Notes under the pieces: generated by a model
What the model saw: only the letters and a program-made list of their open reading frames with translations
What the model was told of the DNA's origin: nothing
Databases searched by the model: none
In this document: positions 10,365 to 59,587 of the stretch, piece by piece
How the letters are laid out: every line of letters starts with the position of its first letter
Position numbering within the stretch: the first letter of the stretch is position 1
Translations under genes and position numbers: made by a program
DNA from: Pectobacterium polonicum
GTDB lineage: Bacteria > Pseudomonadota > Gammaproteobacteria > Enterobacterales > Enterobacteriaceae
Assembly: GCF_005497185.1 (NCBI RefSeq)
Contig: NZ_RJTN01000002.1
Span: forward strand, 62,001-126,000
Reading direction: 5' to 3'
DNA length: 64,000 nucleotides

Positions 10365-11247
10365 TTTTTCCTCCTTTATCAGCGGAGTAGAACACCCAGT
10401 ATTTCGACGACTTAAAGGAGATAGACGCGAATACCGCAACAACCAAGAACAGAACCCATGCCAGTGCAGCACCATAGCCCATATCAAAATACTTGAACGC
10501 TGTATCATAGATATAGAGCGAGAACAGGTAGGTGTAGTGCGTTGGACCACCGCCAGTGATGACGTAAGGTGCCGTAAACTCCTGGAATGCCTGAGTGGTC
10601 TGCATGATAAAGTTAAAGAAAATAACTGGCGTAATCAGCGGTACCGTTACTTTCAGGAACATTTGCCATTTGGATGCACCGTCGATCATGGCGGCTTCGT
10701 ACTGTGATTGCGGAACGTTCTGCAATGCAGCAAGGAAGATAACCATGGCGGAACCAAACTGCCATACGCGCAGCAGGGTTACCGACATCAGTGCCAGCGA
10801 AGGTTCGCCCAGCCAGTTGATAGCGTCAAAGCCAAATACGCCGAGGAAGCTGTTCAGCAAGCCATCGATGGCGAACAGAGCACGCCACAGAACGGCGATT
10901 GCCACGCTGCTACCCAGAATAGAAGGCACATAGTAAGCAGTACGGAAGAAACCGATACCACGTAATTTGAAATTAAGTACAAACGCAATTAACAGTGCGA
11001 AGATTAATTTCAATGGAATGGTCAGAAATACATAGGCAAAAGTGACGCCCATTGATTTCCAAAAAAGATCATCTTCCATGAACATACGGTGATAGTTTTC
11101 TAGCCCCGTAAATTCAGGTGGATTTATCAAATCATACTCAGTAAAACTGAGGATAAATGACGAAACAAAGGGGAAAGCGGTAAAAACTATCAGCCCTATA
11201 ATATAGGGGGAGATATAGGCTAACCCCAGCATTCTGTTTTCATTCAT
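10357..11247 (-). CDS. togM: TogM permease of the oligogalacturonide ABC importer
   Basis: Inner-membrane MalF-type subunit, 296 residues, six predicted spans starting with LAYISPYIIGLIVFTAF. The EAA motif is YEAAMIDGASKWQMF. It pairs with TogN and is powered by TogA. Its 3' end overlaps togN by 8 bp. Only 45 bp separate it from pelW upstream, with no obvious terminator, so pelW-togMNAB probably form one transcript controlled from the KdgR sites before pelW. Confidence 0.93.
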   Translation of the reverse strand: MNENRMLGLAYISPYIIGLIVFTAFPFVSSFILSFTEYDLINPPEFTGLENYHRMFMEDDLFWKSMGVTFAYVFLTIPLKLIFALLIAFVLNFKLRGIGFFRTAYYVPSILGSSVAIAVLWRALFAIDGLLNSFLGVFGFDAINWLGEPSLALMSVTLLRVWQFGSAMVIFLAALQNVPQSQYEAAMIDGASKWQMFLKVTVPLITPVIFFNFIMQTTQAFQEFTAPYVITGGGPTHYTYLFSLYIYDTAFKYFDMGYGAALAWVLFLVVAVFASISFKSSKYWVFYSADKGGKNG

Positions 11248-11292
11248 AATGCTTACCTATTTGTAATTGTGAATCATTAAAAAAATATAAAA

Positions 11293-12924
11293 TCAAGCCG
11301 TTAATAACTCTGGATAAATTAACTCCACGTCATAAACAATTCTATTTTCCCCGTTAACGCAAAAATCACCGTGAACATATCCACCTTGCGTCAAGAACGG
11401 TGGAATAGCGTTTAATTTGTTGCGACAAGCGGCAACGAAAGTCAGTAAAGCCAGCGGATAAGTATCATCCAGACGAACATAACGATGCTGTGCAGAGCGA
11501 ACAAACAAGCCATGATGGAAGTGTTGTTCAAACAGAACGCTCGCTAACTGCGCGGCGTAATGTGCCCAGGATTCTGATTGTTTGTGATCGGCCAGTTCAA
11601 TAACGGTCAACAGAAGCATTGGACTGGCGATGTGCTGAATATTTTCTTTGTTCAGCCGCGTCAGCATGGTGTTAACCAGTGCATACAGGTCTTCATCGCC
11701 GCTCAGACGATAAGCACGAACCAGCGGTAATAAATAATCGCCTTCTAATGCAAACGGTTTTAATTCTGTTCCCGCTTTGCCGTAATAGCCATCGCGTTGA
11801 AAACGGTAGCCTGTCATGTCTTGACCGTTGTTCCACATTGGACGCAGCGTATTGCTAGTGACATCGTAGGCATACTGATAATAATTTTTTAACCCAGAAA
11901 TCACCCAATCCAGCATTTCAGCATCAGGCTGGGTGCGGAGGATATCCAGCATTGCCAGTGGGTTATCAATCAGCAGTGGGCGCATATCACGGAACAGCAC
12001 ATTAGCTTCACGCGCAATTTCGCCGAACTCTGGGCCAAACTGGCGTTGAGCACGATCGCCAAACCAGGATTGTGTCTGGTTATCATCTTCCGGTACGGGT
12101 TGACGCTGTTGTGGTGAGCTGAACTGATACACCGGCATACCGGTTTCTGGGTTGCGAGCCAGAACATATTGGCGATAAAGGTGTTTACCCCAAGCCGCGG
12201 CATGACTATCACCCGTGTATTCTGCGTATTTGAATGCGGCGTAAATCAGATCAGTGCCAGCATTAACAAATGTCAATCCTTTCGTTAATGGCAGAGCAGG
12301 CCACTTTGCTGGATCGACGACGTCATGACGGTTATGCAGGAACACATTAGGATCGCGTTTTTTGCTGTAATCGCCGTGGCGACCCAGATCCAATGATTCC
12401 CAGTTTTCAACGTGCGCGTTCCAGAAGCCCTGAAAGAAATTCAGCGTCTTTTCCGCATTAACACGATGCAATAGCGAATAATAAGGCAGGTGATGCTTTA
12501 ATTCATGCACCTGAGCTTTGGACTCTGGTCCTTCGCCTTCTAAGGTATCCAGATTAATAAAGCGGTGGCCGCCCCAGTAGAACAGGCCGCTATTATTATC
12601 AACAAAGTGTTCAAGGAAATACTCGCTTTGTGCGATAGCGTATTGTTGATAACTATCATCATCGGTAACGACGCTCATAGCGCACAGTGTTCTTAGCCAA
12701 TTCTGCTGGCTGGCAAAATTAGAAATAGGTGCGCTATGGCCATCAGGGAATTGCCATACTACAGGCGCATAATTTTCCACATCAAAGCCATCGGCCAGTA
12801 ATGGCGTTGGTTGGCTCAGGCTACGACCTTTATCCTGTACGCAAGCTATGTGGCTATCAAGTGCTGCAACCCATTCGTCGAGCTGCGATTTCCTGCTGGT
12901 GTATAAGTTTTCAAAAATACTCAT
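11293..12924 (-). CDS. pelW: PelW cytoplasmic exopolygalacturonate lyase (PL2 family)
   Basis: 543-residue protein without a signal peptide, consistent with the intracellular PL2 lyase PelW. PelW releases unsaturated digalacturonate from short oligogalacturonides once TogMNAB has imported them. Length equals the described Dickeya enzyme. Conserved stretches include HDVVDPAKWPALPLTKG and FVNAGTDLIYAAFKYAEY. The ATG follows AAGGTACTCC (AAGG). Two KdgR-like palindromes lie 40-135 bp upstream. It heads the tog transcript. Confidence 0.92.
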   Translation of the reverse strand: MSIFENLYTSRKSQLDEWVAALDSHIACVQDKGRSLSQPTPLLADGFDVENYAPVVWQFPDGHSAPISNFASQQNWLRTLCAMSVVTDDDSYQQYAIAQSEYFLEHFVDNNSGLFYWGGHRFINLDTLEGEGPESKAQVHELKHHLPYYSLLHRVNAEKTLNFFQGFWNAHVENWESLDLGRHGDYSKKRDPNVFLHNRHDVVDPAKWPALPLTKGLTFVNAGTDLIYAAFKYAEYTGDSHAAAWGKHLYRQYVLARNPETGMPVYQFSSPQQRQPVPEDDNQTQSWFGDRAQRQFGPEFGEIAREANVLFRDMRPLLIDNPLAMLDILRTQPDAEMLDWVISGLKNYYQYAYDVTSNTLRPMWNNGQDMTGYRFQRDGYYGKAGTELKPFALEGDYLLPLVRAYRLSGDEDLYALVNTMLTRLNKENIQHIASPMLLLTVIELADHKQSESWAHYAAQLASVLFEQHFHHGLFVRSAQHRYVRLDDTYPLALLTFVAACRNKLNAIPPFLTQGGYVHGDFCVNGENRIVYDVELIYPELLTA

Positions 12925-51140: not shown

Positions 51141-52682
51141 CTATGCGGATGCCGCCCCGTTACGCGGCGGGCAGCGCTCAATTAGCTCAATGCTGCCATC
51201 CGAGTTAGCCTGTTCCAGGTAAACGTCAAACCCCCACAGGCGATGGACGTGCTTCAACACTTCCTGGCTGCTTTTATCTAGCGGCGCGCGGTTATGCGGA
51301 ACATAGCGCAGTGTCAGCGCTCGATTACCGCGTAAATCCACGTTCCAGACCTGAATATTTGGCTCCAGATGGCTCAGGTTGTACTGTGCGGACAGCTCTT
51401 GTCGGATCAAACGATAGCCTTCTTCGTCGTGAATCGCGGCAATTTCCAGATAGTTATTGCGATCGTCGTCCAGCACGGTAAATAGCCGGAAATCGCGCAT
51501 CAATTTAGGTGATAAGAACTGGCTGATGAAGCTTTCATCCTTGAAATTCTGCATCGCGAAATGCAGCGTATCAAGCCAGTCTTTACCCGCGATATCAGGG
51601 AACCAGTAGCGATCTTCCTCTGTCGGTGACTGACAAATACGCTTAATGTCCTGAAACATTGCGAAGCCCAGCGCATAGGGGTTGATGCCGCTGTAATACG
51701 GGCTGTTATACGGCGGTTGATAAATCACGTTGGTATGGCTGTGCAGGAATTCCAGCATGAAACGCTCAGAGACCCGACCCTCATCATAAAGATGGTTCAG
51801 GATGGTGTAATGCCAGAAGGTGGCCCAACCTTCATTCATCACCTGAGTCTGCTTCTGTGGATAGAAATACTGGCTGACTTTCCGCACGATGCGCAATACT
51901 TCTCGTTGCCAGGGCTCGAGCAGCGGGGCGTTTTTCTCCATAAAGTAGAGCAGGTTTTCCTGCGGTTCTTGCGGAAAGCGCCTTGCTTGTTCTGGTGCCG
52001 TACCCTGTTCGCGGCGCGGTAAGGTTTTCCAGAGGTCGTTGACCTGACTTTGCAGATAGGCTTCGCGGCTTTTCTGGCGAGATTTTTCCTCTTCGAGCGA
52101 GATTTTCTGCGGACGCTTATAGCGGTCAACGCCGTAATTCATGAGCGCATGGCAAGAGTCTAACAGGTGCTCGACCTCATCCACGCCATAACGTTCTTCA
52201 CATTGTGCAATATACTGCCGGGCAAACAGCAAATAATCGACGATAGAGCTGGCGTCGGTCCAACTGCGGAACAGATAGTTGCCTTTGAAGAACGAATTGT
52301 GTCCGTAGCAGGCGTGTGCCATGACAAGCGCCTGCATCGGCAGCGTATTTTCTTCCATCAGGTAAGCGATACAGGGATCGGAGTTAATGACGATTTCGTA
52401 TGCCAGCCCCTGTTGCCCGTGCTTGTACCGCTGTTCGGTTTCGATAAATTTTTTCCCGAACGACCAGTGGGCATAGTTGATCGGCATACCTATGCTGGAA
52501 TAGGCATCCATCATTTGTTCTGAGGTGATTACCTCAATCTGATGAGGATAGGTTGCCAGACGATACAGCTTGGCTACCCGATCAATTTCATCAAGGTAAA
52601 CCTGTAATAACTCAAACGTCCAGTCCGGTCCATCACTCAGGCGAAGTGTTTTTTTTACCTGATTATCCGTCGATATAGCCAT
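51141..52682 (-). CDS. ycgB: SpoVR-family protein YcgB
   Basis: 513 residues (510 in E. coli YcgB). Near-identical tracts include DGPDWTFELLQVYL, YPHQIEVITSEQMMDAYSS and MNEGWATFWHYTILNHL, which carries an HExxH-like metal-site histidine pattern. The start MAISTDN (52682) has AGGGGG eight bases upstream. In enterobacteria its expression tracks yeaG-yeaH, also in this window; molecular function is unknown. Confidence 0.93.
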   Translation of the reverse strand: MAISTDNQVKKTLRLSDGPDWTFELLQVYLDEIDRVAKLYRLATYPHQIEVITSEQMMDAYSSIGMPINYAHWSFGKKFIETEQRYKHGQQGLAYEIVINSDPCIAYLMEENTLPMQALVMAHACYGHNSFFKGNYLFRSWTDASSIVDYLLFARQYIAQCEERYGVDEVEHLLDSCHALMNYGVDRYKRPQKISLEEEKSRQKSREAYLQSQVNDLWKTLPRREQGTAPEQARRFPQEPQENLLYFMEKNAPLLEPWQREVLRIVRKVSQYFYPQKQTQVMNEGWATFWHYTILNHLYDEGRVSERFMLEFLHSHTNVIYQPPYNSPYYSGINPYALGFAMFQDIKRICQSPTEEDRYWFPDIAGKDWLDTLHFAMQNFKDESFISQFLSPKLMRDFRLFTVLDDDRNNYLEIAAIHDEEGYRLIRQELSAQYNLSHLEPNIQVWNVDLRGNRALTLRYVPHNRAPLDKSSQEVLKHVHRLWGFDVYLEQANSDGSIELIERCPPRNGAASA

Positions 52683-52878
52683 CAGCGCGCCCCCTAACAT
52701 AACAAGCCTGTACGTGAGATCTCGTTTACTGCCTTCCCGCTGGCTCCTGTCAAAAAATCATCGTGGTTCATTTAGTTATAGCTGAGCTTTGGAAACGCGG
52801 CAATTGACGAATTGAGCGTGTTTGATGGAAAAAGGTCGCTCAGGTGATAAAAGATAAATCGGTATTACGCTGTCTATT

Positions 52879-52948
52879 GATAGGGAAATGCGGATAGGGA
52901 AATGCGGATAGGGAAATGCGGATAGGGAAATGCGGATAGGGAAGTGCG
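52879..52948. repeat. Five 14-bp tandem repeats
   Basis: The unit GATAGGGAAATGCG occurs five times without gaps; the first four are identical and the fifth has one A-to-G change. It lies 32 bp past the aldolase stop and about 200 bp upstream of ycgB. Confidence 0.97.
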
Positions 52949-52980: not shown

Positions 52981-53880
52981 CTAGCGGTGTTGATACCGTT
53001 TTAACAGCCGTTGAATATCGTTGAGGCGGGACACGGCGACCGTGGACAACTTCTCTTTAGAAACGTTGCGATCGAGGGAGATGCAATCCTTCCACAGAGA
53101 ACGTCCGGCAATTACGCCGGCAGCGCCATTTTTCAACGCGCTCTCTACCTGAGGCAGAAAAGTGGCGTGATCGACGCCCGCAGACAGAACGGCCCAGGGT
53201 ATTTCACCGCAGAGAGTGGTCACGCGCGCGCAGGCTTCATCCGATCCAGGATAAGGAATCTTCAAGACTTTTGCGCCTTGCTCGATGCAGGCCTGACAGC
53301 CCGCCGGAATGAGTTCGGGCAGAAGATGGGTATAGGCTTCGCGAGATTCATTTTCCAGAGAGTAGGTGAGGAACTCGACGACGAGCAGTAAATCTTCCTG
53401 TGCAAAGTCCTGAATCACGGTTCGAAGTGTTTCAAGGTTGCGGGTATTGGCGTCGGGGATATCCGGGCGAAGGTAGATCATGATTTTTCCTCCGGTGGCA
53501 CCCCATTCGCGCACTTTACGGGCCGTTACGCCGTCAACCATAGTGGAGATCCGGTAGCCTTCCGGGCTCGTTTCCCAGCCAGAAGCATCAAGCCCGATGA
53601 GCAGGCCGGTATCGCGAGGCAAAATATTTTCGTCTATCAGACCCGGTATGGCGCAGATCGGGTCAACCAGCACACAGCCCGCCTCAGCCGCCAAATAGCG
53701 GGTGATATCATATTTTGTTTTGCCTAATGTTTCATTGGAAATGGCAGCCTGTGTTTCTGACGTTGGCGCTAATAGTGTTCGCATACCGCCACGTTGATCG
53801 CAGGCAATAACCATCATGGCGCCCGTCTCGTCACAAATTAACTGATAGCCCCGGTGCTCAGCGGTTGTCATGGTGTTCAT
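52981..53880 (-). CDS. Class I aldolase, LacD/YihT-like (putative sugar-bisphosphate aldolase)
   Basis: 299 residues from ATG 53880 (GAGGG eight bases upstream; five more codons are open). The TIM-barrel resembles tagatose-bisphosphate and sulfofructose-phosphate aldolases: VIACDQRGGMRTLL corresponds to the YihT segment MLAVDQREAMRMMF, and WAVLSAGVDHATF and GVIAGRSLWK are shared. The Schiff-base lysine would be in VLKIPYPG (about residue 207). Last gene of a seven-gene PTS operon, 37 bp after the kinase. Expected to split a phosphorylated sugar into two trioses; the exact substrate is not readable. Confidence 0.8.
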   Translation of the reverse strand: MNTMTTAEHRGYQLICDETGAMMVIACDQRGGMRTLLAPTSETQAAISNETLGKTKYDITRYLAAEAGCVLVDPICAIPGLIDENILPRDTGLLIGLDASGWETSPEGYRISTMVDGVTARKVREWGATGGKIMIYLRPDIPDANTRNLETLRTVIQDFAQEDLLLVVEFLTYSLENESREAYTHLLPELIPAGCQACIEQGAKVLKIPYPGSDEACARVTTLCGEIPWAVLSAGVDHATFLPQVESALKNGAAGVIAGRSLWKDCISLDRNVSKEKLSTVAVSRLNDIQRLLKRYQHR

Positions 53881-53917
53881 AATAATTACCCTCATAAAAA
53901 TTAATGTAAATAAGCGA

Positions 53918-54451
53918 TTAATCCAGGTGTGTTTTGATCCATTGAATTAATTCCTGATGATTAATTTCCTTATCCTGATCAACCGTGTAACACGTTCCAA
54001 TACACATTGGTTGAGCTTGATGCGCGAGTGAAATTAACTCTGGGAGATACTCATCACCGGGGTGACCCTTTATTCTTTGATTCATTCTATTTTGATACCG
54101 TTCCACAACTCGGTCAGGTGAAATAGCATTCCATATTTCAAGCGGATGCTTGACACCACACGACGTCAGATAGTCCTGTAATATCGATTTTTCACGGAAC
54201 CCGAACCAGGCATCAAGTATGAAAATACTATTCTCTGGAGCCTGTCTAACGATATTAAACATCGCCTGATACGCGGCATAGCCCAGCTTTCTATTTAACG
54301 TTCTATCAATGACATCGCAGAACTGCATCATGAATGGCTCTTTTATTTCATCCAGGCTTAACCGTGGGAGATGCAATTCGTCAGCAATAATACGTGCTAC
54401 CGTGCTTTTCCCTGATGCGGGGATGCCATTGACTAAAATAAGTGTTTTCAT
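53918..54451 (-). CDS. Small P-loop kinase of unknown substrate
   Basis: 177 residues with Walker A GIPASGKST (9-17) and a short lid-like region (RVVERYQNRMNQRIKGHPGDEYLP), the architecture of AAA-type small-molecule kinases such as gluconate kinase or chloramphenicol phosphotransferase. Overlaps the IIA gene by 4 bp, so it is coupled to it. It presumably phosphorylates a sugar or derivative in the same pathway. Not assignable to a named family by eye; AT-rich compared with backbone genes. Confidence 0.7.
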   Translation of the reverse strand: MKTLILVNGIPASGKSTVARIIADELHLPRLSLDEIKEPFMMQFCDVIDRTLNRKLGYAAYQAMFNIVRQAPENSIFILDAWFGFREKSILQDYLTSCGVKHPLEIWNAISPDRVVERYQNRMNQRIKGHPGDEYLPELISLAHQAQPMCIGTCYTVDQDKEINHQELIQWIKTHLD

Positions 54452-54885
54452 AATACCCCGACAATATCATCTGCTGTGGTGGCACATCGGATACGAGAGA
54501 GTATGTCGTCCTGTTCTAATAGGTTGACGATGGAGGCGATACCTTCCGTAATATGTGCATCACTGTTAACCCCGCCAAACATAATTAAAATATCCACCGG
54601 TTCACTTCCGTGAATAGAGAGCGGTGTCTGTAACGTCAGTAAACTAAAACAATTCTCCCGAACGCCGCACTCAGGGCGCGCATGAGGAATAGCGATACCT
54701 TCATCAAATACATAATAAGGACCGTATTCCTTCGTGTTTTCTATCACCGCGATGGGATACGCCTTCGTAATACATCCCGCACTGATTAATGGCTGTGCGG
54801 CACAATAAATAGCGTCTTCCCAGGTCTTACATGTCACGCCGAGCTGAATACAATTGTGCTGCAAAAGGAAATTTTTTATGCTCAT
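54448..54885 (-). CDS. PTS EIIA component, fructose/mannitol-ascorbate superfamily
   Basis: 145-residue IIA domain. The phospho-acceptor is His68 in GIAIPHARPE, followed by the typical PVDILIMFGG. GAGG precedes the ATG. It starts 6 bp after the 92-residue gene and overlaps the kinase gene. It would take phosphate from HPr and pass it to the IIB encoded four genes upstream. Confidence 0.88.
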   Translation of the reverse strand: MSIKNFLLQHNCIQLGVTCKTWEDAIYCAAQPLISAGCITKAYPIAVIENTKEYGPYYVFDEGIAIPHARPECGVRENCFSLLTLQTPLSIHGSEPVDILIMFGGVNSDAHITEGIASIVNLLEQDDILSRIRCATTADDIVGVL

Positions 54886-54891
54886 AAAGCC

Positions 54892-55170
54892 TCATATATT
54901 TTTCCGAATGATATTCCTGAGTTCATCTATCTGAATGAAAATAGTATCAACGCGATCCCGATAGTTAGGATGGGAAGAAAATAATTGAATGGCCTGGTTG
55001 TATTTAATTATTAGCATTTTTTGCGTTTCACTATGGGTCGGGTCTTGTGCTAAACGAGATTCAAGTTCCGCTAATTCTTCCTCAATTTCCCCGACGCGGT
55101 TGTCCTCTGTATTATCACGGCGGCAGGAAGAGGAGGCCGGCGATAAAAAACGTTTAAGTAGAGAAAACAT
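54892..55170 (-). CDS. Unrecognised 92-residue protein in the PTS operon
   Basis: ATG at 55170 with a strong AAGGAG five bases upstream. Soluble, charged and helix-rich; a heptad-like stretch (EIEEELAELESRLAQ, about 28-42) suggests a coiled coil, and a second amphipathic helix ends the protein (DELRNIIRKNI). No membrane segment, no cysteine pair apart from one at residue 16. It sits between IIC and IIA genes with short spacers, so it is very probably expressed with them. No homologue recognised. Confidence 0.75.
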   Translation of the reverse strand: MFSLLKRFLSPASSSCRRDNTEDNRVGEIEEELAELESRLAQDPTHSETQKMLIIKYNQAIQLFSSHPNYRDRVDTIFIQIDELRNIIRKNI

Positions 55171-55214
55171 AGTGACTCCTTAAGCTATTTTCATAATGAC
55201 GACAGGCCAGTACA

Positions 55215-56552
55215 CTATTGCGATAGTTTACGGTTCGCAATAAAAGCAATGAATGCCACGAACGCGATAAATGCGGCGACAAATAACCAATCTTGCTGGA
55301 AGGCGTGTCCTAATATTAGTCCTGTACCAATGACATCAGAATCACTGAAGGTCACGCCGGTAAAGCCGAAGACTTCCAGTAACGGCACCAGAATAGCGGG
55401 CAATAAGGTAATGAAAAGACCATGAACGACACCGCCGATAATTGCGCCACGCCGTCCTCCCATCGCGTTACCGAAAATACCCGCTGTTCCGCCCGCAAAG
55501 AAGTTGGTCAATAAGCCCGGCAAAATCATCGCCAATCCAAACATCGGGAAGATCAGCATTCCCAGAATGGAACCGACGGTGGTAGCGAGAAACCCGACAA
55601 TCACGGCGTTCGGCGCATAAGGGAAGAGCACAGGGCAATCCAATGCGGGTTTAGCGTTAGGCACCAGACGCATGGCGATCCCTCGAAAGGCGGGAACCAG
55701 CTCATTAAGCAGCAGACGTACACCGCTGTAGAGAACGAAAACGCCCGCGACAAACTGCATGGATTGCATGAAGGAATACATCAGATAGTTGACGCCATTG
55801 GCATATTGCGCGATGTATGTCGGTCCCGCAGCCACGGCAGGGATGAGATACATCGGCACCATGACGACGGCCATCGAGAGGTAAGTATCCTGCAAGAATT
55901 TGAAGTTATCGGGCAGCGTTAAATCTTCGGTGGATTTGGAATTTTTACCGACGACCCGAGCGACGGCCGCCTGCACCAGATATCCGATGGTACAAAAATG
56001 TCCTAGCGCAACATCATCGGAATTTGTGATTTTACGGACAATCGGCTGCGCCAACGCAGGCATCAACACCGCCATAATGCCGCCAAAGATTCCTCCGGTG
56101 AGGATCAGCGTCGCGCCGGTCAAACCCGATTTATAGCCGATCACAGTACCGATTGTAGCCATCCACAGCAGAGCCTGTCCCGTCAGGAAGATATATTTAA
56201 AGGGGGTAATTCGCGCAATCAGGATATTGACGGCAAAGATCACCATCAGCGTCAATGCGACTTCGGACCCAAGTTCGCGGTTTGCCAAGCCCGCGATGGC
56301 GGCGACGTCGGTGATGTAGCCTTTCATACCGAAACCGTGGGTAAAGATGCTGTTTAAGTACGTCAGGGCATCGACGATAATGTTAATCCCCGCCATCATG
56401 ATGAGGAAACCCAGCAGTGTCTTGAATGTACCTTCTGCAATTTTCCCTACCGACTTCTTCTGTAAAATCAACCCGATCATGGCGATCAGCGCGATTAATA
56501 TCGATGCCTGGCCTAATAAATCTTTCACAATGAAATTAATAACGGTGTTCAT
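55215..56552 (-). CDS. PTS EIIC component, ascorbate (UlaA/SgaT) type
   Basis: 445-residue membrane permease with about ten spans. It shares the UlaA-type signatures ALDCPVLFPYAPNAVIVGF and ILPGLLTNFFAGGTAGIFGN, plus GHFCTIGYLVQAAVARVVG. It would carry and phosphorylate the substrate with the IIB 13 bp upstream. UlaA-family permeases handle L-ascorbate, but several lineages take other sugars or polyols, so the substrate is open. Confidence 0.88.
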   Translation of the reverse strand: MNTVINFIVKDLLGQASILIALIAMIGLILQKKSVGKIAEGTFKTLLGFLIMMAGINIIVDALTYLNSIFTHGFGMKGYITDVAAIAGLANRELGSEVALTLMVIFAVNILIARITPFKYIFLTGQALLWMATIGTVIGYKSGLTGATLILTGGIFGGIMAVLMPALAQPIVRKITNSDDVALGHFCTIGYLVQAAVARVVGKNSKSTEDLTLPDNFKFLQDTYLSMAVVMVPMYLIPAVAAGPTYIAQYANGVNYLMYSFMQSMQFVAGVFVLYSGVRLLLNELVPAFRGIAMRLVPNAKPALDCPVLFPYAPNAVIVGFLATTVGSILGMLIFPMFGLAMILPGLLTNFFAGGTAGIFGNAMGGRRGAIIGGVVHGLFITLLPAILVPLLEVFGFTGVTFSDSDVIGTGLILGHAFQQDWLFVAAFIAFVAFIAFIANRKLSQ

Positions 56553-56565
56553 TTTTCACCTCATA

Positions 56566-56859
56566 CTATTTATGCGCCTGGATGTAGGCTAAAATTTTTT
56601 CTTCTATTTCATCTTTGTCGGTAAGCTTATTAAGAATGATGACTCTTTTTTTCTCATCTTCACTGGCATCGCTATTCAGGATGTCAGCAAATATTTTCTG
56701 GGTTAGAATGATGTCATAATTGAAGGCTGAGGCTTCTGAAATGGTGGTGTGATTGATTTCTGCATCAATTCCCAATTTTTTCAGTACGGATTTCGCGCTC
56801 ATTTCGATAGCGAAACTAGAACCTAATCCACAACCGCAAACGCAAAGTACTTTCAACAT
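56566..56859 (-). CDS. PTS EIIB component, ascorbate/galactitol type
   Basis: 97 residues. The phospho-cysteine loop is VCGCGLGSS with Cys8, matching the CGxGxGSS pattern of UlaB/GatB. The start MLKVLCVC (56859) has GAGG at 8-nt spacing; the ATG two codons earlier is too close. It follows the phosphofructokinase-like gene by 10 bp. Confidence 0.88.
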   Translation of the reverse strand: MLKVLCVCGCGLGSSFAIEMSAKSVLKKLGIDAEINHTTISEASAFNYDIILTQKIFADILNSDASEDEKKRVIILNKLTDKDEIEEKILAYIQAHK

Positions 56860-56869
56860 AATCATGGCC

Positions 56870-57850
56870 TCATATAAGGTGATGCGCTTTCGCGAGCTTA
56901 TAAAAATGACTGTCGACATCAACTAAGCGTCGTTCGGAATCCTCCAGGTCAATAGGGATGGCTTTATTGTTATTATTAATAATGATAATTTTATTGGTCA
57001 GGCCGGCGTTAATGCATCTGACCATTTCCTCTGCTAACAGTGTGCCCTGAATAATTTCTTCCCCGGTGGGCGCGCCATTTCGTAAACCGTATCCTAAAAT
57101 GGTTTTTCGGATGCGGATGCCAACCTTATGCTCAATTTTCTTGATAATCGTGTCTATCGCCCCCTGAAAGCCAGGCGTATATTCCTGAGTGTATCCCTCA
57201 GAACATAAAATAATTACGCTATTTTGTTCGGCGATTTTCTCCCGAATACGTTGCGATAAGGTGTCAATGTTCCACGGTGATTCTGGAATGAGTGCGATAT
57301 CGGCGTTGCTTTTTAATGCCGCCTGTAATGTTAACTCACCGCAATAACCGCCGAGTAATTCAATCATAAAGACTCGTCCCTGTAATCCCCGGCCGGTATT
57401 GCGTAATTTCTCCACTTCACTCATTACCTGCTCGCAGGCAGTAGAAAAACCAATCGTATAGCTGTTTCCTGAAATATCATTGTCGATGGTCATTCCTACA
57501 CCGTAACAATGAATGCCATAGTGGCTTAACCTTTTTAGAAATTGAAATGAACCATCACCTCCAGCCATAATGAGCACATCGAGTTTTTGTTTTTGGATGT
57601 TTTTAACGATGTGCTCATAGTCTGTTTTTCTACATTTTCCATTTTTTCTCCCTGATGCAATCAGCGGCATTGATGAAATGGAGTAATCCACCAGATCTCG
57701 ACGAGTGAGAGTTTTACAGCAATTATCGATAAGGCCATTAATTCCACCATCGAAAATGACGATGTCAGCGGCAGTCATTCGATTCACCTGATAGATGAAG
57801 TTATTTATTCCGCTAACGTCGCCGCCGCTAATGACTAATCCAATTTTCAT
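56870..57850 (-). CDS. Divergent PfkA-family phosphofructokinase-like kinase
   Basis: 326 residues from ATG 57850 (GAGGG six bases upstream). PFK fold: SGGDVSGIN (8-16), GGDGS (97-101, glycine as in ATP-dependent enzymes) and TIDND (121-125) with the catalytic Asp123. By hand alignment with E. coli PfkA, Arg162, Glu222, Arg243 and Arg252 are kept (Arg159, Glu218, Arg248, Arg257). Arg171 is Gly168, His249 is Tyr254 and Met169 is Leu166, all sugar-phosphate contacts. First gene of the PTS operon. Probably phosphorylates a sugar phosphate other than fructose-6-phosphate. Confidence 0.85.
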   Translation of the reverse strand: MKIGLVISGGDVSGINNFIYQVNRMTAADIVIFDGGINGLIDNCCKTLTRRDLVDYSISSMPLIASGRKNGKCRKTDYEHIVKNIQKQKLDVLIMAGGDGSFQFLKRLSHYGIHCYGVGMTIDNDISGNSYTIGFSTACEQVMSEVEKLRNTGRGLQGRVFMIELLGGYCGELTLQAALKSNADIALIPESPWNIDTLSQRIREKIAEQNSVIILCSEGYTQEYTPGFQGAIDTIIKKIEHKVGIRIRKTILGYGLRNGAPTGEEIIQGTLLAEEMVRCINAGLTNKIIIINNNNKAIPIDLEDSERRLVDVDSHFYKLAKAHHLI

Positions 57851-58333
57851 CATCGCCCTCGAAAAATATGAATAACCATCGTGTGAACACAATGTTATTA
57901 AACTGATAAGGCGTTTTTTTGATGGATGTCGCAATTTTGTATTTAATTACGCGAGGGTATGTCTTGACAGCGATATTGTTGCCTTTATTTGTGTGATGCT
58001 AGTCATGATTTAAAAATAAGCAACCTGACTAACGTGTTAATTAAATTGGGATTTAACATTTTTATCTTTTTTATTGTTCCTTCTCTTTTTTGCGAAAAAA
58101 CGAAAGCGTATTTTGTGAATGGTTTCACAGTTATTTCGTTACGATTTCAGTGAAGAATCGACGAGACGAAAAGATAACAATAGATAAATGTTATCACTGA
58201 GGCAGGTGACAATTGCTTCCCAAATGCTAGAGTAGTCTTCAGTTTCACCTTTTAACTAGTGTTTTATTCCAGTAAATGAGTGATTCATTAGCAGATTAAA
58301 TGGTCTTTAACGGTGCAAAGGGAGAGTAGTCGC
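57851..58333. promoter_or_regulatory. Divergent control region of the PTS operon and dadA
   Basis: 483 bp, AT-rich, no ORF. It contains one perfect CRP palindrome (58114-58129) and one partial one (57992-58007, TGTGATGCTAGTCATG). The partial site is nearer the PTS operon, the perfect one lies between. Confidence 0.6.
58114..58129. promoter_or_regulatory. CRP-cAMP site, perfect palindromic half-sites
   Basis: TGTGA-ATGGTT-TCACA, an exact match to the CRP half-sites with 6-bp spacing. It lies 205 bp before dadA and 264 bp before the PTS operon's first start codon; E. coli dadA is CRP dependent. Confidence 0.85.
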
Positions 58334-59587
58334 ATGCGGGTTGTGATTCTGGGAAGTGGTGTAGTTGGCGTAAGTACCGCCTGGTATCTTGCGCAGGCAG
58401 GGCATGATGTCACCGTTATCGACAGGCAACCGGAGCCCGCGCTTGAAACCAGTGCAGCGAATGCAGGGCAGATCTCACCCGGCTATGCGGCACCGTGGGC
58501 TGCACCTGGAATACCGCTGAAAGCGATAAAATGGATGTTCCAGCGTCATGCACCGCTGGCTATCCGGCCGGATTTCACGGCGACACAGCTTTGCTGGATG
58601 TGGCAAATGTTACTCAACTGTGATGCGCGCCACTATAAAACCAATAAAGCCCGGATGGTGCGCCTGGCGGAATACAGCCGTGACTGCCTGCAACAACTGC
58701 GGCGAGATACCGGTATCCAGTACGAAGGTCGACAGGGGGGAACGCTGCAACTGTTCCGCACTGAACAGCAATATGACAATGCGACACGGGATATTGCCGT
58801 GCTGGAAGAGGCTGGCGTGCCTTACCAACTGTTGACCCGACAGGCGCTAGCCTCGGTTGAACCTGCGCTGGCGAGCGTGGCGGATAAACTCACCGGAGGG
58901 CTGCGGTTACCGCATGATGAAACGGGAGACTGCCAGCTGTTTACTCGTCAACTGGCGGCGATGGCTACCGAGGCCGGTGTCACCTTCAAGCTGGGGCGTC
59001 ACGTTCGTCAACTGCGAGTTGAAGGGCATCATGTCACGGGCGTGCAGTGCGACGATGGCATGATTGTGGCAGATGCCTATGTGATGGCCTGCGGTTCCTA
59101 TTCAACAGGGCTACTGCGCCAGTGGTTCGATATTCCGGTTTATCCGTTGAAAGGCTATTCACTGACAATTCCGCTGGCGGATGATGCCGCCGCACCGGTT
59201 TCTACCGTGCTGGATGAAACGTACAAAGTTGCTATCACACGTTTTGACCATCGTATTCGCGTTGGTGGCATGGCGGAAGTGGTGGGTTTTAACACCGATC
59301 TGAACCTTAAACGGCGCGAGACGCTGGAAATGGTGGTGCGCGATCTCTATCCCCATTGTGGTCCGATCGAACAAGCGACATTCTGGACAGGGCTGCGCCC
59401 GATGACGCCGGACGGTACGCCGCTGGTGGGGCGTTCACCGCTGAAAAATCTGTATCTGAATACCGGACACGGCACGTTAGGCTGGACGATGGCCTGCGGG
59501 TCAGGGAAATTATTGGCAGATATTCTGTCGGATAAATCACCGGAGATTGAAGCCGATGATTTATCCGTGGAAAGGTATGTTCGTTAG
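58334..59587 (+). CDS. dadA: D-amino acid dehydrogenase DadA
   Basis: FAD-dependent, membrane-associated small subunit that oxidises D-alanine and other D-amino acids to keto acids. 417 residues (432 in E. coli), with FAD motif GSGVVG (7-12). Start MRVVILG (58334) has AAAGGGAGAG upstream; seven further codons are open. The C-terminus [19 protein letters not shown] is conserved. dadX, next to it in E. coli, is absent here: the following gene is convergent and unrelated. Confidence 0.94.

Follow-up and report, generated by a model that had tools for sequence, protein, structure and literature searches.

A Conserved Operon of a Phosphotransferase System, a P-Loop Kinase and a Class I Aldolase in Pectobacterium polonicum, Predicted to Function in Ketose Catabolism

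A Seven-Gene Operon Predicted to Serve Sugar Uptake, Phosphorylation and Cleavage

In a 64-kb stretch of the Pectobacterium polonicum genome (64,000 nucleotides of contig NZ_RJTN01000002.1, hereafter the window, to which all positions refer), seven minus-strand open reading frames (ORFs) form an operon for a sugar phosphotransferase system (PTS), two putative kinases and an aldolase. As assigned from ORFs and Pfam, the genes follow one another in the order phosphofructokinase (PFK)-like, IIB, IIC, small protein, IIA, P-loop kinase (PLK) and class I aldolase:

56870..57850, minus strand, PfkA-superfamily protein (PFK-like), 326 aa, Pfam PFK 3e-62
56566..56859, minus strand, PTS EIIB, 97 aa, Pfam PTS_IIB 4e-12
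55215..56552, minus strand, PTS EIIC of the ascorbate (Ula/Sga) family, 445 aa, Pfam EIIC-GAT 1e-121
54892..55170, minus strand, small helical protein, 92 aa, no Pfam model above cut-off
54448..54885, minus strand, PTS EIIA with IPHARP motif, 145 aa, Pfam PTS_EIIA_2 3e-27
53918..54451, minus strand, PLK, proposed ketose-phosphate 1-kinase, 177 aa, Pfam AAA_33 8e-7
52981..53880, minus strand, class I aldolase of the LacD/DeoC superfamily, 299 aa, Pfam DeoC/LacD 3e-14

The seven genes are separated by gaps of 6–44 bp or by one overlap of 4 bp, and the ORFs starting at 57850, 56859, 56552, 55170, 54885, 54451 and 53880, on which the initial annotation of this DNA was built, are all present. The seven-gene operon is real and conserved. 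Its probable substrate is a rare plant ketose, perhaps with seven carbons, which it would take up and cleave. The evidence tips, if modestly, toward a catabolic route of PTS, PLK and aldolase that would be the PTS form of a rhizobial locus encoding an ATP-binding cassette (ABC) transporter, a fusion of ROK kinase and PLK (ROK::PLK) and an aldolase. The reading of the parts as an ascorbate-type PTS, a second phosphorylation and a class I aldolase is supported. Pfam found no isomerase and no regulator among the seven proteins, as had been noted before; because the operon has no isomerase, the PTS product would be expected to be a ketose phosphate already, which is in line with the initial annotation.

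The operon shares the EIIC, EIIB and EIIA families with the Ula/Sga ascorbate PTS (ulaABC). Its EIIC exceeds the cut-offs of two NCBIfam models, NF009551 (824.5 vs. 657 bits) and the ascorbate-family NF006919 (481 vs. 380 bits), but IIC falls in a separate clade, EIIB and EIIA stay below the cut-offs of the UlaB (25.7 vs. 138 bits) and UlaC (104.9 vs. 187 bits) equivalogs, and no ulaDEF-type enzyme was found among the seven proteins by Pfam. In a tree of 31 IIC proteins, the 25 from the loci of layouts A–E described below form one clade (100/100), apart from six rows at ~45% identity. Within it, 17 proteins from layouts A and B group together (100/99), and those from C and E lie outside that group.

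Lys207 of the aldolase, which we take to be the catalytic residue, is kept in all 12 aligned sequences and faces the LacD lysine in the alignment, and the protein scores far below the LacD equivalog cut-off (TIGR01232, 51.1 vs. 432.2 bits). The tagatose-6-phosphate pathway lacABCD likewise combines a PTS, a second kinase and a LacD-superfamily class I aldolase, but its LacAB isomerase and PfkB-type LacC have no counterpart by Pfam among the seven proteins of the operon, to which this comparison is confined.

In the PLK, residues G9 and P11–S16 of the P-loop are invariant in 15 of 15 sequences, as are many further residues. Its AlphaFold model has a mean pLDDT of 93.4, and Foldseek ranks the putative kinase 2rhm first, followed by O-phosphoseryl-tRNA kinase and adenylate kinase and, from rank 10, by PFKFB3, the substrate of which is fructose-6-phosphate; we regard these matches as fold-level resemblance. 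No NCBIfam model scores above its cut-off, and Pfam places the protein only in AAA_33. The closest named matches are in Samsonia and Pectobacterium loci (81–90% identity).

The 92-aa protein is conserved across layouts A and B, and, judged by position, a small protein is present in every PTS layout seen. The counterpart in layout C is 16% identical and has no Pfam match, and that in layout E gives TPR matches below cut-off, so the homology of either to the 92-aa protein is uncertain. AlphaFold predicts three helices (mean pLDDT 81, with the N-terminal 20 residues poorly predicted), and matches in the PDB are weak (best E 0.021).

Five Layouts Share a P-Loop Kinase and an Aldolase

The operon parts were seen in five layouts. 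Layout A (the window, L031, L044–L057 and L064; 17 loci) has the gene order of the window, and in 7 of the 17 loci a HAD phosphatase gene follows the aldolase. A gene for fructose-6-phosphate aldolase (FSA) lies upstream of two layout A operons (L055, 3268–3936; L057, 2927–3592). Layout B (L032–L039, L042 and L065; 10 loci) has the order PFK-like, IIB, IIC, class II aldolase, small protein, IIA and PLK; three of its aldolases were scanned and all exceed the ketose-bisphosphate aldolase cut-off (TIGR00167). One of the layout B loci, L065 (CP125156.1), is on a 5.37-Mb record that is filed as a Klebsiella plasmid and looks like a chromosome; there the PFK-like gene and the aldolase gene each give matches in two frames, look broken and are missing from the gene table.

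In layout C (L040 and L041), a SorC regulator is divergent from class I aldolase, PLK, IIA, IIB, IIC and small protein, with no PFK match. Layout D (11 loci: L060–L063 and L096–L099 from 8 of 24 alphaproteobacterial plasmid records, these 8 being Rhizobiales plasmids, and L128–L130 from three genomes) has SorC divergent from a class I aldolase and ROK::PLK. All of the 11 loci except L096 also have a ribose-type ABC transporter; no IIC or PFK match occurs in the stretches fetched. In L099 ROK::PLK is matched in two frames, and in the other 10 loci it gives a single unbroken match; Pfam shows both domains in one polypeptide in L060. Across all 11 loci, the window aldolase is 62–73% identical to the layout D aldolases, and the window PLK is 40–47% identical to the PLK part of ROK::PLK. 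On the rhizobial plasmid of L096, a YvcK-family gene (10579–11673) adjoins the ROK::PLK locus. Layout E (L100–L105) comprises an IIA-bearing regulator, for which the Pfam evidence of PRD and IIA domains comes from L104, together with IIB, IIC, a small protein, a class II aldolase and a different P-loop kinase, with no PFK match; these are the 6 loci opened of 11 genomes with an IIC at 60–63% identity, and all 6 are alike.

Layout C joins the PTS and ABC forms: it carries PTS genes together with a SorC (71–73% identical) and a PLK (57–62% identical) that are close to those of layout D. We infer that the window operon, with a PTS in place of the ABC transporter and ROK kinase, corresponds to the ABC, ROK::PLK and aldolase locus of rhizobia and relatives. 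A shared aldolase, a shared kinase and, in layout C, a shared regulator link the enterobacterial and rhizobial loci.

CRP-Like Sites Accompany the Operon

Upstream of the operon lies an exact TGTGA-N6-TCACA palindrome:

58114..58129, no strand assigned, CRP-like palindrome TGTGAATGGTTTCACA

This is the only exact match in the 64-kb window, which has none with one mismatch. Among genus loci, taken for the operon-bearing class from 15 of the 17 PFK-positive genomes, an exact site is present in 15 of 15 with the operon, including the window, and in 0 of 8 without it. Outside the window, a CRP-like site with at most one mismatch is found within 500 bases of the PFK-like start in 25 of 25 layout A and B loci (L065 not included). 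The layout A loci have an exact site at −278 to −294 (16/16) and a second site with at most one mismatch at −156 to −159 (14/16; not L050 and L051), and in layout B the site is at −142 to −152 (9/9). These predicted sites suggest that the operon is probably activated by CRP. The site at 58114–58129 could also serve dadA, the gene beyond it, but this is disfavored by its absence from the operon-less loci. Scans for promoters and terminators gave results at chance level.

Two Proposed Phosphorylations before Cleavage

A P-loop kinase and an aldolase occur in every layout, whereas the aldolase class (I or II), the system for the first phosphorylation and the regulator are swapped. The constant core would be a first phosphorylation, a P-loop kinase and an aldolase, and the simplest chemistry common to the layouts would be two phosphorylations followed by a cleavage that forms dihydroxyacetone phosphate (DHAP); the ROK::PLK fusion itself suggests two serial phosphorylations. 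In the mechanism that we propose, the Ula-family PTS (EIIA, IIB and IIC) would import a ketose and place a phosphate on its terminal carbon, the PLK would add a second phosphate at C1, and the class I aldolase would split the bisphosphate into DHAP and an aldose phosphate. In the case of mannoheptulose, the 7-phosphate would become the 1,7-bisphosphate and then DHAP and erythrose-4-phosphate. The generic scheme of ketose, ketose phosphate, bisphosphate, and DHAP plus aldose phosphate is likely in our view, with all its reactions predicted from sequence.

It is much less probable, and indeed quite improbable, that the aldolase cleaves the PTS product at the monophosphate stage, as YihT does, with the PLK acting on the aldehyde so released or on another part of a different substrate (psicose, sedoheptulose or a modified ketose). 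Two points speak for such a route: the relatives of the window aldolase with solved structures include YihT/sulfofructosephosphate aldolase, and P-loop kinases have varied acceptors. However, the ROK::PLK fusion and the pairing of the kinase with ketose-bisphosphate-type class II aldolases fit serial phosphorylation better.

The initial annotation had instead given the second phosphorylation to the PfkA-like protein, as a stand-in for LacC. In this route the protein would be a ketose-6-phosphate 1-kinase and the P-loop kinase an accessory. All NCBIfam PFK models score the protein below cut-off (168.7 vs. 371.35 bits for the PfkA equivalog TIGR02482), and its identity to the second PfkA-like copy in this genome is 31%. 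It shares the superfamily and the GGDGS and TIDND motifs with bacterial 6-phosphofructokinase PfkA. In an alignment with that other copy, G11, R72, D103, G104, T125, D127, D129, R162, R243 and R252 are kept (in what we take to be the E. coli numbering), but G108 is changed to F, M169 to L, R171 to G and H249 to Y. Among seven aligned PFK-like sequences, G or A replaces R171 and Y or F replaces H249, all seven have F for G108 and L for M169, and the other listed residues are kept except that D129 is N in L036. The protein is likely an active enzyme with a changed pocket, to judge from these residues. The first position of its gene in layouts A and B and the retention of D127, D103, R72, R162 and R243, with the roles that we presume for them, speak for the route of the initial annotation. 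Against it stand the replacement of R171 and H249 and the restriction of the PFK-like gene to layouts A and B: no PFK-like gene was found in the layout C, D and E loci, all of which retain a P-loop kinase and an aldolase. We therefore rejected the PFK-like protein as the key kinase, and the route built on it is unlikely; a P-loop kinase, and not the PFK-like protein, is the kinase common to every layout seen. The PFK-like protein might phosphorylate a second ketose phosphate, such as sedoheptulose-7-phosphate, but this is a guess. Because the IIC tree groups A with B and places C and E outside, either one branch gained its gene or the other branches lost it. An anonymous PTS is in this way turned into a testable pathway, in which the P-loop kinase rather than the PFK is indicated as the enzyme of interest.

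D-Mannoheptulose as the Leading Candidate

The initial annotation named no sugar, which needs partial revision: the ABC form has a published mannoheptulose prediction, and the sugar is still tentative. In a Rhodobacteraceae locus (bin08), Leyn et al. (2017, PMC5507952) predicted mannoheptulose degradation, and the relevant passages propose a kinase–kinase–aldolase route through the 7-phosphate and the 1,7-bisphosphate to DHAP and erythrose-4-phosphate. As described there, the bin08 locus and the window operon have in common serial phosphorylations, the second by a P-loop kinase (COG0529 in bin08), and a COG3684 aldolase after the kinases, with no isomerase; bin08 uses an ABC transporter and a ROK kinase in a pathway that is itself a prediction, whereas the window operon has PTS IIABC in the ABC/ROK role and, in addition, the PFK-like and small helical proteins. 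The window operon would thus be the PTS variant of a pathway whose ABC form has already been predicted in the literature. Our comparison with this pathway was made through the layout D loci. The passages of PMC5507952 also state that the related protein Avi_5339 binds mannoheptulose, as an unpublished observation of others. The binding protein of one layout D locus (L060) matches PDB 5dkv (536 bits), which we take to be the protein Avi_5339. Owing to the link with the ABC, ROK::PLK and aldolase locus, D-mannoheptulose, a sugar of avocado (PMC8746741), is the leading candidate, although a tentative one that falls somewhat short of even chances.

The product side offers further hints. The DHAP-forming cleavage of mannoheptulose-1,7-bisphosphate would yield erythrose-4-phosphate. 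This compound is a precursor of vitamin B6, and a PdxJ gene beside SorC in 2 of the 11 layout D loci would fit such a product, although this is suggestive only. On these rhizobial plasmids PdxJ occurs with a HAD phosphatase (L060, 6294–7040; L096, 5904–6653). Through GAPDH, erythrose-4-phosphate also gives rise to toxic 4-phosphoerythronate, according to the text of PMC12445079, and the HAD phosphatase of layout A possibly acts against this by-product.

D-Tagatose and D-mannoheptulose have the same stereochemistry at C3–C5. D-Tagatose comes second among the candidates and is rather unlikely; the PTS would yield tagatose-6-phosphate, the PLK the 1,6-bisphosphate, and the aldolase DHAP and glyceraldehyde-3-phosphate. 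Besides the shared stereochemistry, the alternation of LacD-like and GatY-like aldolases between layouts speaks for it. On the other side, mannoheptulose is the sugar named as the ligand in the relevant passage of PMC5507952, and Winslowiella arboricola BAC 15a-03b, which carries layout A (L052), is described in PMC9712802 with an API 50 CHB/E acid list that lacks D-tagatose and L-sorbose, neither word occurring in the main text; the strip includes both sugars, as given in PMC9730526. This result, a single test on a single species, speaks mildly against tagatose and sorbose. In a term search, tagatose and heptuloses were not mentioned as growth substrates of Pectobacterium in PMC10850344 and PMC11133636. 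The E. coli mutants that use D-tagatose do so via the fructose PTS, as stated in PMC10101011, which has no bearing on the window operon. Among the top-ranked matches of our open-access literature queries, several of them broad, no paper on the PTS form was found.

Several points weigh against the reading of the operon as a mannoheptulose-type pathway related to the rhizobial locus. The transfer from the ABC to the PTS form draws on the similarity of aldolase, PLK and SorC and not on the transporter, and the kinase of layout E is only a remote match to the PLK (hhalign E 2e-4, probability 45%). If the second phosphate comes from the PLK, the PFK-like gene kept in layouts A and B has no clear job. 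In 10 of the 17 layout A loci, the window included, no HAD gene was found, and neither layout C locus has a CRP-like site better than two mismatches. The title of 5dkv reportedly names bound D-tagatose, which would favor that sugar. Missing induction can make an API test negative, and the binding of mannoheptulose by Avi_5339 is an unpublished observation of others, quoted second-hand in the passage of PMC5507952.

A broader proposal, about which we have more doubt than belief, is that the operon combines a PTS devoted to a seven-carbon ketose in its free form with a P-loop heptulose-7-phosphate 1-kinase and with a PfkA paralogue adapted to heptulose phosphates, and that it has spread in plant- and animal-associated Enterobacterales and is interchangeable with the rhizobial ABC/ROK form. 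If so, a dedicated heptulose PTS would feed erythrose-4-phosphate directly into metabolism. A heptulose as the sugar would also show how plant-associated bacteria use such sugars and would assign a function to a family of P-loop kinases otherwise placed only in AAA_33.

Genomic Setting and Distribution

The operon is flanked by ycgB and dadA, and both neighbors named in the initial annotation are borne out by Pfam and NCBIfam:

51141-52700, ycgB/SpoVR, flanking gene on the aldolase side
58313-59587, dadA, D-amino acid dehydrogenase, flanking gene on the PFK-like side

A 14-bp unit (GATAGGGAAATGCG) occurs five times in tandem at 52879–52948, in the interval that separates ycgB from the aldolase gene. 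The G+C content of the operon is 46.4%, compared with 49.0% for the window. The description of the operon as AT-rich holds for four genes (PFK-like, IIB, small protein and PLK, 38–42%) but not for IIC (50.5%) and the aldolase (54.1%); IIA has 45.2%.

In the order sample, 14 of 394 genomes have a PLK (E up to 1e-10), and the same 14 hold an IIC at least 71% identical; 11 more genomes have an IIC at 60–63%, and all other IIC matches are at most 48% identical. In the phylum sample a PLK is found in 11 of 398 genomes (E up to 1e-15), of which three do not belong to the order, and in the class sample PLK matches occur in 2 of 369 genomes (E up to 1e-10). One of these two is the genome of the window; the other (G627, PLK match at E 1.3e-16) was not counted as a family member, as gene calling found no query proteins around the match. 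Of 72,556 plasmid records, 28 match the PLK (E up to 0.01), including 21 from Rhizobium, 2 from Agrobacterium and 1 from Aureimonas. The IIC DNA matches none of 20,395 E. coli records.

Within the genus, the PFK-like gene is present in 17 of 25 genomes (92–100% identity), and ycgB lies directly beside dadA in five of the eight genomes that lack it. These absences are consistent with the acquisition suggested by the initial annotation, but Samsonia (L044) carries the operon with the same two neighbors, and the operon would therefore be old at the ycgB–dadA site. The stretches fetched around the operon from genera other than Pectobacterium and Samsonia showed neither ycgB nor dadA. In one operon-less Pectobacterium (L123), the place of ycgB beside dadA holds ORFs that by eye resemble a recombinase and a zinc-finger protein.

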